DNA of 21,989 bases from a virus. The DNA lies in IMG/VR virus record IMGVR_UViG_3300036886_000459, positions 1 to 21,989 of that record; one strand, given 5' to 3'. Position numbers and translations under genes: made by a program. The notes under the pieces are model-generated. The model did not search any database, was not told the DNA's origin, and saw nothing but the letters and a program-made list of their open reading frames with translations. Of this stretch, positions 14,454-21,989 are shown piece after piece (the first letter of the stretch is position 1; the number at the start of each line of letters is the position of its first letter).

Positions 14454-16550
14454 ATGTTTGAAGATTTTGGGGGTGGTACGATCATTTCGCCTAGTACGGG
14501 GACTGGTCTTGCCGGTGGAAGTGACAATAATGTTTCGATGAGTTTTACTCGTGGAAGTATACGTTATGACTCACCTTTTTTAGATATGACCAGTACATTT
14601 ATACCTAAATCAATTAAGGGTATTTTAAAGTTTATAGCTGCCTATGTAGTTTCAGATGGTTTACTTTCGCAATGCATCACAAAAATGGCAGAATATCCAA
14701 TAACCGATTTGATTTATAAAGATACTGATGAAACATTTTTAAAAGATGATAAGACTATTGATAAGTGGAAAAATATACTTGAAGCATCTATGTGTATAAT
14801 GAGATCTTTGAAACAAGCTGGTATGGATTATTATGCTTTTGGAAATTCAATTATATCTATAAATTATCCTTTTAAAAGAATGTTATCGTGTCCTAAGTGT
14901 AAACAGAGTCATACGGCTGACGGCTTAAAAGTAAAATTTGAAAATTTTAAATTTAAAGCGGCATGTGCAACACCTGGATGTAATTATGAAGGTGAAATGG
15001 ACGCCAGGGATATAAATACAAAGGAGATAAGTAAGCTTGGTGTAGTTCACTGGGATTTGCTTTATATAGATATAAAATATAATTCAATTACAGGTGACCA
15101 TTTCTATTATTACACCATACCTGCAGATTTACAATTCGCAATCAGGCGCGGAGATATGGATATTGTCAATGGAACTAGACTTGAAGTTATTCGAGCAGTA
15201 GAAAAAAGAAAACAACTCAAACTTATGGCTGATAATGTTTTTCATCTCAAACGCACTGGCCCACAGTATATCGTTCCCAGTGAAAGGGGCTGGGGTATAC
15301 CTTTACCTATGGCAGTATTGAAAGATATCTTCCATACAAAGGTTTTACGCAAAGGAAATGAATTAATCGCATTTGACCATATAGTACCATTGAGAATTCT
15401 CTTTCCGCAAGGAACTGGTGATGTATCTCCACACGCAACAATTTCATTATCCGATTGGAGAAGTAAGCTGGAATCGGAGATTAGAAAATGGCGTTCTGAC
15501 CCAAACTATATAACTATAATGCCTATACCATTGGGCTTACAAAACTTTAGCGGGGATGCAAAATTGTTAATGATAAGCCCAGAAATCAAAGCTTCTGAAG
15601 ATACAATTATAACTGGAATGGGGGTCCTGCCTGAAGTAATAAGGGGAGGTGCGTCATGGTCTGGAAGTAATGTATCTTTACGCATAGTTGAAAACACTTT
15701 TATAAATCATAGAACCGACATGCAAAAGATGATTGATTTTATAATTAAAAATGTAGCTAGTTTTATGGGATTACCAAAAATAAATACCAAAATGATGGAC
15801 TTCAAGATGGCAGATGATCTTGACAAAAAGAAATTAATGGTTCAACTAGCTGAACAACAAGGTTCTGATTCTATGGTAAGCAAACCAACAGTGATGCGCG
15901 AACTTGGATTGGAACCTGAAAAAGAATACAAATCTTTACAGGATGATTTAAAGAAAAGGCTTGAAATGAAAATACAAGAGGCTGAAGGCTTAGCCGAAGC
16001 CCAGGGCGCTGGGTCTATCGTCTCTGCGTTATTTTCCGCAGACGCACAAATAGAACAAAATAAGCGTATGCAAAGTAACCAAACCGAGGCTATGCAAAAA
16101 CAAGATATTGAAAACCAACAAGCAAGCGAACAGAATGCAGATGGTGTTGGGCAGGATGTCTCAACGCTGGCTGCCAAACAAGGTAAAAACCCAAACACAA
16201 TATCTATTCCTAATTTAATAATGATACTTACACAAAGATTTGCTAAACTTGCCCAATATGATCCAACTGAATTTGGTCTTCGGATGATTTCATGTAAGGC
16301 AAGTACACCATCACTTTATGAAGAAATTTATAAAAATTTAAAGAGTATGAATTTGGTAATTTTAGATACCATCCCTGGATTGCAGGCTAGTAATCCTACG
16401 CCTGGTCAAATACCTGTAAACACACAGGGTGGTGCTACCGCAGAGACTCCAACAAGCCCAGCCGCTTCTGGTTCAGATCCAAACGCAGTTAATGCAATTG
16501 AAATGCAAGGGTTGCCAGAACAAAAACCTCCTAGAAATGGTCAAATTTAA
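14454..16550 (+). CDS. Portal-like vertex protein with inserted zinc ribbon
   Basis: 698 residues. The ATG at 14454 has GGAG seven bases upstream. The portal forms the ring through which DNA enters and leaves the capsid. Evidence is recalled similarity to large-phage portal proteins: DYYAFGNSIISINYPFKRML near residues 125-144, then a Cys-rich insertion, then HIVPLRILFP and GMGVLPEVIRGGASWSGSNV, followed by a long helix. The insertion has C146-x2-C149 and C171-x4-C176, which fits a zinc ribbon. Residues about 500-570 are Gln-rich and helical. The last 50 are Pro/Thr/Gly-rich and probably disordered. The length is within the range for large-phage portals, but this call rests on motifs and neighbourhood. 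I cannot see a terminase or capsid protease in the window to confirm the order. Confidence 0.65.
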   Translation: MFEDFGGGTIISPSTGTGLAGGSDNNVSMSFTRGSIRYDSPFLDMTSTFIPKSIKGILKFIAAYVVSDGLLSQCITKMAEYPITDLIYKDTDETFLKDDKTIDKWKNILEASMCIMRSLKQAGMDYYAFGNSIISINYPFKRMLSCPKCKQSHTADGLKVKFENFKFKAACATPGCNYEGEMDARDINTKEISKLGVVHWDLLYIDIKYNSITGDHFYYYTIPADLQFAIRRGDMDIVNGTRLEVIRAVEKRKQLKLMADNVFHLKRTGPQYIVPSERGWGIPLPMAVLKDIFHTKVLRKGNELIAFDHIVPLRILFPQGTGDVSPHATISLSDWRSKLESEIRKWRSDPNYITIMPIPLGLQNFSGDAKLLMISPEIKASEDTIITGMGVLPEVIRGGASWSGSNVSLRIVENTFINHRTDMQKMIDFIIKNVASFMGLPKINTKMMDFKMADDLDKKKLMVQLAEQQGSDSMVSKPTVMRELGLEPEKEYKSLQDDLKKRLEMKIQEAEGLAEAQGAGSIVSALFSADAQIEQNKRMQSNQTEAMQKQDIENQQASEQNADGVGQDVSTLAAKQGKNPNTISIPNLIMILTQRFAKLAQYDPTEFGLRMISCKASTPSLYEEIYKNLKSMNLVILDTIPGLQASNPTPGQIPVNTQGGATAETPTSPAASGSDPNAVNAIEMQGLPEQKPPRNGQI

Positions 16551-16634: not shown

Positions 16635-17006
16635 ATGAAAAAATATGGTTTGAAACATAAAAAAGAAAAAAAAGAGTATGATAGAAAACGTAAATTAAAG
16701 CTTTCATACAATATGACAAAAGAAGATTTTGATAAAATGTTATCAAAACAAAAATATAAATGTAAAATTTGTAAAAACAAATTAAATAAAAGCTGTGTGG
16801 ACCATGACCATATAACAAACAATGTTAGGGGGATACTTTGTCCTAGATGTAACTTAATGATAGGTCAAGCCGAAGATAGTATTAAAATATTAACAAGTGC
16901 TATAAAATATTTAAAACACAATAAAATTCCAACAAATATAATACAGTTTCCTTCAAAAAAATACGTTGTTTCAATACCTAAAAAAAGAGTTTGTTGTTCA
17001 AACTAA
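16635..17006 (+). CDS. HNH endonuclease of the endonuclease VII type, probable 5' frameshift
   Basis: 123 residues as written. The motifs fit the recombination endonuclease VII family: C43-x2-C46, then VDHDH at 55-59, then RGILCPRCN (C69, C72, N73), which form a structural zinc site and a beta-beta-alpha metal catalytic centre. Family members nick or cut branched DNA. Similar small phage versions can also act as free-standing homing-type enzymes, so its role is open. The ATG at 16635 has AAGGA touching it, which is poor spacing. The frame is open upstream, with KKIEDQIKQHSKYYLDHKDE just before it. An ATG at 16553, two bases after the portal stop, reads MPYKK but stops after 13 codons. Removing one A from the run of eight at 16562-16569 would join the two. 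It is the last gene before the terminator. Confidence 0.75.
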   Translation: MKKYGLKHKKEKKEYDRKRKLKLSYNMTKEDFDKMLSKQKYKCKICKNKLNKSCVDHDHITNNVRGILCPRCNLMIGQAEDSIKILTSAIKYLKHNKIPTNIIQFPSKKYVVSIPKKRVCCSN

Positions 17007-17292: not shown

Positions 17293-18354
17293 TTATTTGT
17301 CTTTGATAAGCCTCAATGAATATCCATTATTGATATTTTGGGGTCTACCGGTAATTCCAAGAGCCTCAACGTCACCTTCTAATCCTGATCTTGATGTCGT
17401 ATCTTGTTGATAAACAGTTCTACTCCAATAATCAAAACTAGTATCCTTCCCAGTAAATCCTCCTTTATAACTTCTTGTTCCAGGAAAGTTTAAATTGAAA
17501 TATGGATCATTTGGAATTCCACCTGTGGCTGCTAATGCTGTGTACAATACTCCCCACTCTGTATCTGATGGTATATGCCACCCATCCGGTACCGCCACCG
17601 CCATCGCTCCCCTCCAATTATACAAAATCCCGTACTTCTTTACGCTATCACTATTATAAATATCATTATAATAACAACCTGCGTAAGTAGTCATATTTGC
17701 CCAGTCAGTATTGTTATCCTGACTATCAAATATAGGTAGCATATAATTGGAATTCTTGGCTGCCTCAGCGGTATCGCTAAGTCTGGTACACCTGTAGTTT
17801 TCACGCATCCAGGTCCTTCCACCTATAACGACTGTCTGGTAAACATTCCCGTTAGTGTCCTGAATTGACCCAGAGGTGTCTGAAATAGTAATACTTATTC
17901 CGGACATCATATAGCTCGTAATAGGCGTCCTGGCGCTCCAGTAACCAGCCTTCGTTACAACAATGGTATCATTGACCGCATCTACGATAGCTTGCCTTCC
18001 TGAGCCTCTTATAATGATTTTCTCTTCAGAACCTTTGGCTGCCTCAATGAAGCATCCAGTAACGACCGTTCTGTTGATAATCCTTCCACTTAAATCGTAG
18101 GCTTTCCCAGAAACCTTTCTATTTATACTAATTTTTAAGGTCTTTTGCTTATCAGCATATAGGTTAGTAACACTTACAAACTGTATTGCAAACTGACCAT
18201 TACTATTAGTTACGGTTGAAAGGTTTCTTTTCAGAACAGTCACGGTGGCTCCAGAAATTAATGTGTTACCGGTATCTGTAACGATACCCGTAAGGTTAAC
18301 TGATTGTGAAAAGCTTATAGAAATCAATGCAATAAGAATTGTAAGTGTTTTCAT
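17293..18354 (-). CDS. Secreted FISUMP-domain protein with CarboxypepD-like N-terminus
   Basis: 353 residues. The ATG at 18354 has AGGAG seven bases upstream. Residues 1-18 are a classical signal peptide (MKTLTILIALISISFSQS) with no lipobox Cys. Residues about 21-60 resemble a carboxypeptidase-regulatory-like domain (GIVTDTGNTLISGATVTVLK, then NSNGQFAI). The region about 75-160 repeats that style (KVSGKAYDLSGR, NDTIVVTKAGYWS). Residues about 164-351 match the FISUMP domain: DTNGNVYQTVVIGGRTWMRE, KYGILYNWRGA, PDGWHIPSDTEW, YWSR, and the end NNGYSLRLIKD. Such proteins are abundant at the surface of Fibrobacter and Bacteroidota, with no defined enzyme activity. Several stretches are richer in G+C than the virion genes (33 of 60 bases at 17581-17640), which suggests acquisition from a host. 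A role in altering the host surface or in adhesion is inference. Confidence 0.85.
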   Translation of the reverse strand: MKTLTILIALISISFSQSVNLTGIVTDTGNTLISGATVTVLKRNLSTVTNSNGQFAIQFVSVTNLYADKQKTLKISINRKVSGKAYDLSGRIINRTVVTGCFIEAAKGSEEKIIIRGSGRQAIVDAVNDTIVVTKAGYWSARTPITSYMMSGISITISDTSGSIQDTNGNVYQTVVIGGRTWMRENYRCTRLSDTAEAAKNSNYMLPIFDSQDNNTDWANMTTYAGCYYNDIYNSDSVKKYGILYNWRGAMAVAVPDGWHIPSDTEWGVLYTALAATGGIPNDPYFNLNFPGTRSYKGGFTGKDTSFDYWSRTVYQQDTTSRSGLEGDVEALGITGRPQNINNGYSLRLIKDK

Positions 18355-18485: not shown

Positions 18486-18872
18486 TTATAATATTTGATT
18501 GATTTTCTTATTATCACATAATTCGTTTATGGGTTTATTAGCCTTTAAATAATCAGCCATTGCCTGAAGATACTGTTTTTCAAACAAATGTATATCATAA
18601 CATTGATATACAGGGGTTTTTAGATCATCACATTTACAAATACTAAATGTAAGATCGGTATCTTCATTGTTAAATTCCTTATCTGCAGTATCGTACTTAA
18701 AATGAATACACATCTCTTCTGAGCACCTTTTCTCTGGATCAACAAAACCCTCTTCCTTTAAATCGGTGCTATACTCAAATTCGATAAAACTGATAGCGCC
18801 CATTGCCACTATTACAGTTTTTACCTTCCTTTCTATGGACGTTGTTTTTACAGCAGAAATATGAATTACCAC
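18486..18872 (-). CDS. Cys-containing 128-residue protein downstream of the ubiquitin-like gene, unknown function
   Basis: The start is GTG 18872, chosen because AAAGGAGG lies five bases upstream, one of the best ribosome-binding sites in the window. The protein begins with a likely strand pair (IHISAVKT, VKTVIVAMGAISFIEFEY) and ends with helices (LFEKQYLQAMADYLKANKP). Six Cys occur at 50, 55, 79, 81, 91 and 119. The C-x4-C, C-x-C and single C could bind a metal, but no known zinc-finger spacing is matched. It lies 148 bases downstream of the ubiquitin-like gene on the same strand, with a strong hairpin between, so it may or may not belong to that operon. I recognise no family. An accessory or substrate role in the conjugation system is speculation. 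Confidence 0.65.
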   Translation of the reverse strand: MVIHISAVKTTSIERKVKTVIVAMGAISFIEFEYSTDLKEEGFVDPEKRCSEEMCIHFKYDTADKEFNNEDTDLTFSICKCDDLKTPVYQCYDIHLFEKQYLQAMADYLKANKPINELCDNKKINQIL

Positions 18873-19020: not shown

Positions 19021-19488
19021 CTAATTACCCTTAACGACCTGTGAACATATAATTCTAACCTTACCGCTACCGGGACGAGTAACGACGGAATCGATTGTTG
19101 CGATTCCACCATTAATACGGAATTCAAAAGCAGGTGTTCCGTTTGCGCGGAAAAACTGTGCCTTTTCATCCGCATTAAGCTGATCAAGAACGGTCTTGAT
19201 TGAATATCCATCCATTGCCGGAAGCGTGATTGCACGTCCACCACCAAGACGGAAAAATTCAACCTCAAACGGGTCAGAATTTCCTTTTACCATCTTTGCG
19301 ATATAAAACTTATCGTCACTATAAACATATTCACCTTCAGAAACAAGGCGCTGGTTTCGTGATACCTCTCCATCATTAAAATCACGGCCAGCCTGGTCAA
19401 AAAGGTCGCCGACAGTTGAACCCGACTCTACTGCAAAGGACTGAATTTCAGTCCCAAGCTGTACTAATGTAGCTATAATCGTTGCCAT
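19021..19488 (-). CDS. Tandem ubiquitin-like (beta-grasp) protein
   Basis: 155 residues. The ATG at 19488 has AGGA eight bases upstream. Two beta-grasp-like domains are visible. Domain 1 (1-70) starts ATIIATLVQLGTEIQSFAVE, has STVGDLFDQAG as the helix, and ends FYIAKMVKGN. Domain 2 (71-155) starts FEVEFFRLGGGRAITLPA, has GYSIKTVLDQL as the helix, then FEFRINGG, and ends ICSQVVKGN. The strand-turn-strand, helix, strand order and the closing basic-Gly tail fit bacterial ThiS/MoaD/ubiquitin-like proteins. Those usually end in Gly-Gly; here both domains end in Gly-Asn. Beside an E1, a JAB and an E2-like gene, it is the expected modifier, conjugated by its C-terminus to targets, possibly after cutting at the inter-domain VKGN. 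Composition (26 of 60 G+C at 19081-19140) is richer than the virion genes. A role as sulfur carrier cannot be excluded. Confidence 0.8.
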   Translation of the reverse strand: MATIIATLVQLGTEIQSFAVESGSTVGDLFDQAGRDFNDGEVSRNQRLVSEGEYVYSDDKFYIAKMVKGNSDPFEVEFFRLGGGRAITLPAMDGYSIKTVLDQLNADEKAQFFRANGTPAFEFRINGGIATIDSVVTRPGSGKVRIICSQVVKGN

Positions 19489-19533
19489 TTTAAAAATCCT
19501 AAGAAAATACCTACTACTTCAATTATTGTCACA

Positions 19534-20301
19534 TCAGGAACACATTGCCAACACTGGTTCTTCACCGAAACATCTCAAATAAAAGGTTTCCGGATACAGT
19601 GAAAACTGTGCTTCATTCCACTGGATATATGGTTGATTTTTATCTGGTCTAATGTTATCGTTTCCATACTTCATGTTGAAATGTTGTAATATTCTTCCGA
19701 CAGCAAGGCTTGCTAAAAATCCTACCGTCGATACTATAGACTGACTCCCACCGCATAAGGACGCTTCTGCGACATTATCCGAATACAGTGTTTTTTTCCA
19801 ATCCTCTACATGAGCATTGTTATTTGGATTAAAGGAATAGATCCGACCATCCCGTAACCCCATTCTTGTTTCCACCAGTAAATCAGTATTGAATGGAAAT
19901 TTTAAATGCTTCTCGAAGATTTCTGTTCTGCTTTTCATTGTGTCAGTCAACATAAATACATAAGTGCTCCGGATAAGTTCAGAATCGGTTTTGTCATCAA
20001 CCATCTGATTATAAGCCTCTATTTCAAAGCCACATTTTTTTAGAATCATTTGTTTCAAGGCTTCGACTTTAGGCTTTCCTATATGGTCTGGTTCATAAAT
20101 CTGGTTTGCCAAATTATGTTCTTCAACTATATCTCCGTCAAACACTCGTAATCTTCCTTGCGAATGAGTTGAGTCACCCCATCCCATTTGAGCAAGGAGT
20201 GACGCTACATATGATCCGGTAGCGCCAACCCCAATCACGGTAATACTTTTATCCTTTATCTGCTCAGGGTCGAGCAGATTTATTTGTCTTGTAAAGTTCA
20301 T
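19534..20301 (-). CDS. E1/ThiF-family adenylating enzyme of a ubiquitin-like system
   Basis: 255 residues. The ATG at 20301 overlaps the JAB stop in ATGA, with AAGGTGG upstream. E1 enzymes adenylate the C-terminus of a ubiquitin-like protein and pass it to a Cys. The Rossmann nucleotide-binding loop is VIGVGATGSYVASLLAQMGW (22-41). The acidic strand end is VFDGDIVEEHNLANQIYEPD (53-72), followed by GKPKVEAL with the conserved Lys. D120 and R125 (LTDTMKSR) match the ATP-site D...R. The crossover helix region is SLCGGSQSIVSTVGFLASLA, with Cys183 as candidate catalytic residue. C244 and C254 near the C-terminus are other candidates. The usual N-L-x-R-Q reads N-L-A-N-Q, so the conserved Arg is absent. 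No thiamine or molybdopterin genes are nearby, and the neighbours argue for protein conjugation. It ends 45 bases before the tandem ubiquitin-like gene. Confidence 0.87.
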   Translation of the reverse strand: MNFTRQINLLDPEQIKDKSITVIGVGATGSYVASLLAQMGWGDSTHSQGRLRVFDGDIVEEHNLANQIYEPDHIGKPKVEALKQMILKKCGFEIEAYNQMVDDKTDSELIRSTYVFMLTDTMKSRTEIFEKHLKFPFNTDLLVETRMGLRDGRIYSFNPNNNAHVEDWKKTLYSDNVAEASLCGGSQSIVSTVGFLASLAVGRILQHFNMKYGNDNIRPDKNQPYIQWNEAQFSLYPETFYLRCFGEEPVLAMCS

Positions 20302-21260
20302 AGTACGCCACCTTCAAATTCTTTTATTATTTCTTCAACTTCCGCTCTTGAATCATCAAGATAGGAATTTGAATTTATAACACGAGTATTGTTCTTTCCT
20401 GCCCTTTTGTTTCTTTTAGTATTATTTACATGGCTGAATTTGTCCAAAAAAGTCAATTGTCTGACGTTATGATTTGTACTATTGGCATTTTTTTCATGAA
20501 ACTTTCCATAACCACCATAGTCATAACCGTCATCAGTATGATCTTTGTCCCAATAGTTTTTACTATTAGGCCAAGTATCAGCTGGAATATTGACTTTTTT
20601 AAGTTCTTCTATTTTTGCTATTATTACTTTTTCTTCAAGATCTTCAGAAGTTATTCTGTTAATCGCATCAAGTTTTTGTTTTGTGGTAAGGTTGGAACTA
20701 ACCATGGCGTTTATTTCCTGCAATTTTTCAGCAAGAAAGGCGTCATCGTTTTCTTTTTCTTCTTCCCATTTTACATTATCAAACCTGACTTGTTTTTCAA
20801 AATCGAAAAATGATATTCCGATTAATTCTTCATTATTGACAATAATCCTTATAAGATGATTGCCTGTAGTTTTCATAAGATCCAAAGCCTGTGTATTATC
20901 CTGTCCAGAAGGACCTACTCCCATTGAATGATGTGAGTGACCCCACAGAATCATTCTCCCAATGTCTTCAGACCTTTCGTGGGCTATAAGCCATTCGGCT
21001 ATCAGTGTTCCACCCTCAGGACTTATTTCACAGGTAGCTGCAGATACAAGTTGTTGCTTTGGATAAAATATATCTCTCACAAAAAATGTATAATCTTCAA
21101 GCGTATCAACAACACCGTAAAAACCAACTTCTCCAGAATGCGCTTTAATGAGATTTTTAATCCATTTAAGCGCAGTTCTGGAAAAAATTATTGATGGAGG
21201 AATCTTAGTCTCCGGAGGCGTCAATAAGGTGTATGTTGTTTTTTCTAATGTGTTTTTCAT
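20298..21260 (-). CDS. JAB/JAMM-domain metalloprotease (deubiquitinase-like)
   Basis: 320 residues. The ATG at 21260 overlaps the upstream stop by one base (TAATG), which implies translational coupling. JAB enzymes are zinc isopeptidases that cut after a ubiquitin-like C-terminus. The full motif is present: E44 in SGEVGFYG, then H108-S-H110 (GHSHHSMGVGPSGQD) with exactly seven residues to S118 and two more to D121. The domain spans about residues 20-155. Residues 160-235 look helical (FLAEKLQEINAMVSS, KQKLDAINRITSEDLEEKVI). About 235-300 is Asn/Gly/Lys-rich and probably disordered, ending in an acidic helix (EVEEIIKEFEGGV). The tail is longer than a minimal JAB and may bind partners. It probably matures the tandem ubiquitin-like protein or removes it from targets. 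The protein substrate is inferred from the operon. Confidence 0.88.
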   Translation of the reverse strand: MKNTLEKTTYTLLTPPETKIPPSIIFSRTALKWIKNLIKAHSGEVGFYGVVDTLEDYTFFVRDIFYPKQQLVSAATCEISPEGGTLIAEWLIAHERSEDIGRMILWGHSHHSMGVGPSGQDNTQALDLMKTTGNHLIRIIVNNEELIGISFFDFEKQVRFDNVKWEEEKENDDAFLAEKLQEINAMVSSNLTTKQKLDAINRITSEDLEEKVIIAKIEELKKVNIPADTWPNSKNYWDKDHTDDGYDYGGYGKFHEKNANSTNHNVRQLTFLDKFSHVNNTKRNKRAGKNNTRVINSNSYLDDSRAEVEEIIKEFEGGVL

Positions 21261-21952
21261 TAAAAACTATCGGTTCCTGCGGTCTCGGGTGTTACTACAG
21301 GAAACCCTAAAATTTTGCAACCCCAACCATCATGTGTGTCGGGATTTCTTATATATTTAATAATAAGTTCAATAGCCATCATAATATTTTTAGTTTTTAA
21401 CGCTATATCAAGTTGTTCAAAAACATGCCCAAAACAAGGTTCGCCTTGGTGTGGAATATGACCACCGGCCCACACACCATCATCATCTTCAAAAATATGC
21501 GTTAAATTATATATATGAATTGGTGTTGTCGGATTATTAAACACGGTTTCGCTTAATATTGCGTTGGAATTTATAATTATCTGCATTTCACCGACATCCC
21601 TTATTGTATCATCATCGAGTTTCTCGGTATGCAGTCTTTTTGTCAATATTGTGATATTACCGTCTTTGTTAACATATACTTTTTTAATCAAACTGTTTTC
21701 AGTAATATCTTCATTTATTTTTTTTAATTGATCTATTATAAAATTTACCTTTTGATTTTCCTCGACAGGCTTCATTAAAATTTCAATTTCATTTCTTAAA
21801 ACCAATGTTTTTGATATAAGCCTGTTTAGTTCTAATATTTTTTCTTTGACAACATTTATATTTGATCCAAGAGCATTTTTCATGGCTCCAGCAATTAATA
21901 TTTTCTCATCACCGCTACATGGAGGAACCGGTTGAAGGTGGCTTTCAATCAT
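21260..21952 (-). CDS. Candidate prokaryotic E2-like protein (ubiquitin-like conjugation)
   Basis: 230 residues from ATG 21952, but the frame stays open to the window edge, so the gene may start further right. Residues about 30-90 are helical, possibly a coiled coil (EKILELNRLISKTLVLRNEI). Then come beta strands (KKVYVNKDGNITILTKRL, MQIIINSN). After that AGGHIPHQGEPCFGH places H165, H168 and C173 in the H...G-x-[PI]-C order seen at the active site of E2 folds, followed by a long helix and P-D-T-H-D-G-W-G. This resembles the prokaryotic E2 families (Prok-E2, such as the PRTRC-B type) recalled from the literature. E2s accept a ubiquitin-like protein from an E1 on a Cys and pass it to a target. 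C173 is the predicted thioester Cys. Adjacent E1, JAB and ubiquitin-like genes support it. Fold and activity are not proven by sequence alone. Confidence 0.65.
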   Translation of the reverse strand: MIESHLQPVPPCSGDEKILIAGAMKNALGSNINVVKEKILELNRLISKTLVLRNEIEILMKPVEENQKVNFIIDQLKKINEDITENSLIKKVYVNKDGNITILTKRLHTEKLDDDTIRDVGEMQIIINSNAILSETVFNNPTTPIHIYNLTHIFEDDDGVWAGGHIPHQGEPCFGHVFEQLDIALKTKNIMMAIELIIKYIRNPDTHDGWGCKILGFPVVTPETAGTDSF

Positions 21953-21989
21953 TTCACCATCACTGGGTTCAGCAACATCTGGATCAATA

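Follow-up and report, generated by a model that had tools for sequence, protein, structure and literature searches.

A predicted ubiquitin-like conjugation cassette with a tandem modifier in a group of large uncultured phages

The cassette

The virus record IMGVR_UViG_3300036886_000459 of IMG/VR is a fragment of 21,989 bp, and its whole length is referred to here as the window. Four minus-strand genes at one end encode an E1 enzyme, a JAB/JAMM isopeptidase, an E2-like conjugating enzyme (E2b) and a ubiquitin-like protein (Ubl) with two domains in tandem; together these are likely to constitute a phage-borne ubiquitin-like conjugation pathway. An earlier, sequence-only reading had placed the four genes together on one strand with overlaps of 1 and 4 bases. 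The open reading frames agree with this: E2b and JAB share 1 base and JAB and E1 share 4, while 45 bases separate E1 from Ubl. The components are listed below in their order along the minus strand.

21260..21988, minus strand: E2-like conjugating enzyme, E2b (an ATG at 21952 gives 230 residues, 21260-21952)
21434..21460, minus strand: E2b active-site stretch HIPHQGEPC, His165 to Cys173
20298..21260, minus strand: JAB/JAMM isopeptidase, 320 residues
20898..20939, minus strand: JAMM motif HSHHSMGVGPSGQD, residues 108-121 of JAB
19534..20301, minus strand: E1, a ThiF-fold adenylating enzyme of 255 residues with a single adenylation domain
19753..19755, minus strand: E1 Cys183 (S-x-C-G-x-S), candidate thioester cysteine, invariant in 9 lineages
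19021..19488, minus strand: Ubl, tandem ubiquitin-like protein, 155 residues
19279-19488, minus strand: Ubl domain 1, residues 1-70, ending VKGN
19279..19287, minus strand: KGN at the end of Ubl domain 1 (residues 68-70); putative internal processing site
19024-19278, minus strand: Ubl domain 2, residues 71-155, ending VKGN
19024..19032, minus strand: KGN at the end of Ubl domain 2 and of the whole protein (residues 153-155)

The tandem Ubl and its matched ends

Pfam gives no significant match for the Ubl. Its AlphaFold model (predicted local distance difference test, pLDDT, 81.9) consists of two beta-grasp units, and a Foldseek search of the PDB returns linear di-ubiquitin and ISG15 as top matches (E 5e-7 to 5e-6). 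The first domain is weakly ThiS-like, with E values of 0.18 in the window and 0.021 in one relative, G007.

Conservation was assessed over nine lineages, namely the window and eight relatives (G001-G008). Ten Ubl columns are invariant (L29, K68, G69, V76, R80, G82, G117, R145, K153 and G154), and four of these ten are the two Lys-Gly pairs that close the domains. The residue after each pair is Asn at both ends in eight lineages and Ser at both ends in G007; the matched S/S ends represent a single event in one lineage and do not amount to a statistical test. Apart from the KG[N/S] ends, the two domains are poorly alike. Past the second KG[N/S], the chain stops at once in the window, G001, G004 and G008, and continues for 1 residue in G005 and G007, 4 in G006, 15 in G003 and 21 in G002; these tails (0-21 residues) show no conservation between lineages. 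Taken as a sequence pattern, the Ubl looks like a processed precursor of the poly-ubiquitin type, giving modifiers that would end in -KG or -KG[N/S]. The simplest explanation is that a single enzyme reads both domain ends, as in poly-ubiquitin; an uncut tandem like ISG15 is possible.

The E1 enzyme and the JAMM protease

The E1 matches ThiF in Pfam at 6.9e-22 and is certain as a sequence assignment. It is the best conserved component, 53-81% identical to the window in the eight other lineages, and the residues invariant in all nine are R5, GxGAxG, D55, D57, N63, Q67, K78, D120, R125 and C183. The position of Cys183 is one that we take to be equivalent to the catalytic Cys of ATG7. A scan of genome contigs with the E1 gave no cellular relative.

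The JAB protein is far under the Pfam cut-off (13.3 vs 25 bits). Its residues E44, H108, H110, S118 and D121 are nevertheless invariant in the nine lineages, which upholds the earlier description of an E...HxH-x7-S-x2-D motif, with x6 in place of x7 in one lineage; the protein is thus predicted to possess a complete JAMM metal site. In profile comparisons it pairs with its counterpart in phage MT835544 (94%) and, more weakly, with crAss001 gp77 (68%).

Two E2-like proteins

Pfam also gives no significant match for E2b. Its AlphaFold model (pLDDT 80.9) finds UbcH7 chains as best Foldseek matches in the PDB (E 6e-3, probability 0.99), and every one of the top 15 is an E2 or E2-fold (ubiquitin E2 variant, UEV) chain. 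A structure search of a viral library returns uncharacterised phage proteins and, more weakly, giant-virus E2. Sequence-only PDB searches with the E2, JAB and Ubl profiles yielded nothing useful, and a viral scan with the window E2b sequence alone found no relatives. Only 11 positions are invariant across the nine lineages, among them H165 and C173, which also line up in three of the E2a proteins described below. The conserved-looking Cys on which the candidate E2 had been proposed is therefore invariant, and it lies in a predicted E2 fold. In an HHalign comparison, E2b aligns with the E2-like protein of Xanthomonas phage PhiXhv-15 (84.5%, E 7e-6), Cys on Cys.

The E2b reading frame is open up to the contig end and the E2b proteins of relatives have 324-475 residues, so that the window protein probably lacks its N-terminus; the ATG at 21952, formerly taken as the start, is probably internal. 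Because the window ends inside E2b, the N-terminus and any further E2 gene are out of view. In all eight relatives a homologous protein, E2a (534-761 residues), is encoded 5' of E2b. It ends in an E2-like domain with the motif APH...C[HL]GN, invariant in 8/8. A further motif, C[LMF]G, lies in the N-terminal half of E2a in G001-G003 and G005-G008 (e.g. L002 5593-7878) and possibly marks a degenerate second E2-like domain. It is not claimed as a further E2 site, because its Cys is replaced in G004, where the motif is lost.

Conservation in related phages

Relatives were found by IMG/VR scans with E1, Ubl and portal, the portal serving as anchor; portal contigs of ~5 kb are uninformative for the presence of the cassette. 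It is present in every contig with enough DNA, that is, in G001-G008 and in the near-copies L037 and L050. One contig, L043, was considered as a phage without the cassette and rejected, since a whole-contig search placed its E1 ~14 kb away. The portals of the nine lineages are 49-74% identical; identity to the window is 27-63% for Ubl, 29-49% for JAB and 21-40% for E2b. The order E2a-E2b-JAB-E1-Ubl is constant wherever sequence allows, and the set is never split in informative contigs. Chance grouping is excluded, because the gene order recurs in eight other lineages; the expectation that the four genes would be kept together thus holds in every relative with enough sequence.

The assignment of the module to a phage is likewise upheld: cassette-bearing contigs reach 181 kb, and genes for a portal protein, a terminase-like ATPase and an RNA polymerase fusion occur in G001. 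The carriers form a family of large uncultured tailed phages, with the cassette as a conserved core feature of the whole group.

Several other features were observed. A very large RNA polymerase protein occurs in G001, G005, G006 and G008, and is a beta-beta' fusion in G001 (L017 106-6156). In G001 at ~16-30 kb (L013 and L014), about nine small proteins start with near-identical copies of MxxFEQIKEAAFIDELEKIA, which may act as a signal for packaging or targeting; this motif was not seen in any other stretch searched. L020 4143-7142 encodes part of a class II ribonucleotide reductase, with matches to intein and LAGLIDADG; a transfer-messenger RNA gene is predicted directly 3' of it (L020 3732-4131).

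Genomic context

The remaining genes around the cassette in the window are as follows.

14454..16550, plus strand: portal protein, converging on the cassette (tblastn, portal of Salmonella phage Arash, 4e-63)
16635-17006, plus strand: endonuclease VII
18486..18872, minus strand: fifth, accessory small gene, 128 residues, directly 3' of Ubl

The plus-strand genes run from a 2,193-residue beta-helix protein through to the portal and endonuclease VII. On the minus strand, from the other window end, the E2-like, JAB, E1 and Ubl genes are followed by the 128-residue protein and a FISUMP-domain gene. The 128-residue gene has homologues 3' of Ubl in G001, G002 and G003 (25-27% identity) and in G008; it is weakly conserved, and none adjoins Ubl in G006 and G007. 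The stretch between portal and cassette, at 17293-18354, encodes FISUMP (Fib_succ_major) and carboxypeptidase-regulatory-like domains, a combination hinting at a Bacteroidota/Fibrobacterota host.

The location beside the portal, part of the sequence-only reading, is found in the window and in 7/8 relatives; in G004 the distance from portal to E1 is ~14 kb. The link to the virion that had been drawn from it fares less well. The cassette does adjoin the portal, but the virion genes converge on it from the opposite strand, and it runs with genes for DNA metabolism. In G001, the same strand 5' of the cassette encodes, among others, a VRR-NUC protein (above cut-off), a helix-turn-helix-like protein, a SNF2-type helicase, an RNase T/PD-(D/E)XK protein (exonuclease) and a Toprim/MCM-type primase-helicase. 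This arrangement suggests that the cassette is the end of a DNA-metabolism block and not part of the virion block.

Comparable gene sets in other phages

A tblastn search with the E1 gave 81 phage records. In crAss001, representative of a type of Bacteroides phage, gp76-gp79 (L004 2253-6663) are adjoining genes for a Ubl-like protein, an E2-like protein (HSH...C.G), a JAMM protein and an E1. Four more Steigviridae and Flavobacterium phage Fpv3 (gp52-gp55) have the same four adjoining genes with active-site residues conserved (L023, L025-L028); the DAC15 JAB as annotated is without its N-terminal part. The Ubl of these phages has a conserved K-S-G followed by a long C-terminal extension, and existing annotation describes the genes as hypothetical, metalloprotease or thiamine-biosynthesis genes. 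Their cassettes adjoin primase, uracil-DNA glycosylase and exonuclease genes.

The isolated Xanthomonas jumbo phage PhiXhv-15 (L022 2736-6615) encodes Ubl, E2-like and E1 proteins between DNA ligase and topoisomerase; the Ubl-like C-terminus ends SGG, and the E2 domain (HPHM...SLCLG) is part of an 892-residue protein. The adjacent genes that were read contain no JAMM motif. On the gut contig MT835544 there are a small reading frame for a Ubl-like protein and one for an E2-like protein, besides the JAB noted above and an E1. The E2 and Ubl profiles gave no significant match to crAss001 and MT835544 proteins, so that homology of these two components is argued from motifs, gene order and the matches of JAB and E1.

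Proposed mode of action and alternatives

The proteins have the general attributes of a ubiquitin-like system: a beta-grasp Ubl, an E1 with adenylation residues and Cys, an E2 fold with Cys, and a JAMM site. The gene set, its order and conservation, the predicted E2 and Ubl folds, the invariant catalytic residues and the co-varying KG[N/S] pairs are what the sequences and models show; from these we infer every chemical step, the timing and the targets in the following scheme. The tandem Ubl would be made as a precursor and cut by the JAMM protease at the KG[N/S] closing each beta-grasp domain; this would remove any C-terminal tail and probably part the two domains. The E1 would then adenylate the exposed Ubl C-terminus and probably hold the Ubl as a thioester on Cys183, from where it would pass to an E2 cysteine (Cys173 in E2b, its counterpart in E2a, or both). 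Finally, the Ubl would be attached to target proteins through their amino groups, and the JAMM protease could take it off again.

Several points weigh against this scheme. The Ubl terminates in KGN, not GG; the E1 has Asn at the position of MoeB Arg73 (HNLxNQ replaces the Arg-containing motif); E2b is without the canonical HPN Asn; and no E3 is recognisable. The TM-score of the E2b match in the PDB is modest (~0.35 by query, 0.5 by target), and the structure models drew on shallow alignments (4 and 7 sequences). The argument from the replication block, finally, has gene order as its sole basis.

As for targets, the position next to the portal in most lineages, and the known occurrence of a Ubl and a JAB peptidase in lambdoid tail-assembly clusters (PMC1779556), might suggest virion proteins of the phage itself (capsid, portal or tail) as the ones tagged. 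This is quite improbable, given the opposite, converging strand shared with DNA-metabolism genes, the separation from the portal in G004, and the crAss, Flavobacterium and Xanthomonas versions, which lie among replication genes; moreover, the structural atlas of a crassvirus names none of gp75, gp76, gp78, ThiF and ubiquitin in its main text (PMC10172136). Since the cassette runs with the DNA-metabolism block, and those of other phages do likewise, replication or host-takeover targets are likelier than the virion. We tentatively favour replication or recombination proteins, or host proteins that the phage encounters in the early phase of infection, at somewhat below even chances.

Alternatively, the cassette could disable host defences based on Ubls or on the cyclic-oligonucleotide-based antiphage signalling system (CBASS), either by JAMM removal of host tags or by blockage of host enzymes with the phage's Ubl and E2. 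Hosts do deploy Ubl systems against phage, namely Bil and CBASS Cap2 (PMC10097602, PMC11354881), a JAMM protease by itself could undo host Ubl tags, and CBASS E1-E2 proteins are distant relatives of the E1. A decoy, on the other hand, would not need a complete cascade that includes two E2s and precursor processing, and anti-defence genes are usually patchy while this cassette is a conserved core of the whole group; counter-defence is accordingly unlikely. The chances are very slim that the Ubl instead donates thiocarboxylate in the manner of ThiS/MoaD, with the E1 acting as a ThiF/MoeB in the thiolation of a cofactor, tRNA or DNA. The E1 is ThiF/MoeB-like, the first Ubl domain resembles ThiS weakly, and JAB peptidases occur in sulfur operons too (PMC1779556); yet the E1 is well under the ThiF/MoeB equivalog cut-offs, the two E2-fold proteins have an invariant Cys, the tandem Ubl lacks a GG end, and the surroundings of the cassette showed neither thi/moa genes nor genes for rhodanese or cysteine synthase.

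Conjugation by the phage itself is thus the preferred reading. In its fullest form it is held at nearly even odds: this group of large phages would depend, as a core part of infection, on its own Ubl system (a single precursor split into two different modifiers with -KG or -KG[N/S] ends, two E2s and one E1) for the control of phage replication or the remodelling of host proteins, with related systems unnoticed in crAss-like gut phages. Bacterial Ubl operons are best known as antiphage, and a full cascade as core equipment of phages would reverse that picture. Its retention in every relative sampled suggests that these viruses label proteins during infection much as human cells do. The poly-ubiquitin-like precursor with co-varying ends offers concrete, testable biochemistry. 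As the isolated phages crAss001, Fpv3 and PhiXhv-15 carry comparable gene sets, the question is open to cultured systems now.

Comparison with known systems

No description of a complete phage-encoded cascade was found in the mainly open-access literature searched, and an earlier account elsewhere is possible. A full-text search of open papers for a phage Ubl-JAB link gave only the lambda TAPI/TAPK tail-assembly pair (Iyer 2006, row 5). This pair is likewise phage-encoded, but has neither E1 nor E2, and its JAB is joined to NlpC/P60. The crAss001-type and Fpv3 cassettes share the four neighbouring genes, and differ in their order (Ubl-E2-JAB-E1), in the single Ubl domain and in an E1 of a separate clade. 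PhiXhv-15 has an E2 whose profile aligns over the UBC-like part and an E1 directly 3' of it; its Ubl is single and its order is Ubl-E2-E1.

The PRTRC plasmid system (Iyer 2006, row 6d) also has separate Ubl, E2, JAB and E1 genes, with the order E2-JAB-E1 in Azonexus. The distinction from PRTRC that had been proposed stands: the window E1 belongs to another clade and scores 41.0 bits against a TIGR03736 cut-off of 144.75, and the E2 profiles do not match (0.5%). In addition, PRTRC protein B (the E2) has a conserved His C-terminal to its Cys, whereas in the cassette the His precedes the Cys. PRTRC E/F and ParB were not recognised in the window or the neighbouring genes examined; no whole-genome search was made.

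Bil operons (BilABCD) resemble the cassette in having a two-domain Ubl, E2, JAB and E1. BilD has two adenylation domains (inactive and active) and a Cys domain, and BilB has a CEHH motif (PMC11354881); the window E1, in contrast, has one ThiF domain in its 255 residues, and E2b is without an invariant Glu/His after Cys173. The polyUbl operons (Iyer 2006, row 6e) have tandem Ubl-domain repeats too, but their JAB is fused to E1 and their E2 is inactive (PMC1779556), while the cassette has separate JAB and E1 genes and an invariant E2 Cys. CBASS Cap2 is an E1-E2 fusion found with a CD-NTase; the window E1 is separate, and only the E1 domain matches Cap2. Against the ThiF/MoeB equivalog cut-offs, the E1 reaches 59.2 vs 159, 52.4 vs 275.25 and 44 vs 266 bits. 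Judged by these sequence features, the cassette falls outside PRTRC, Bil, the polyUbl operons, Cap2 and ThiF/MoeB.

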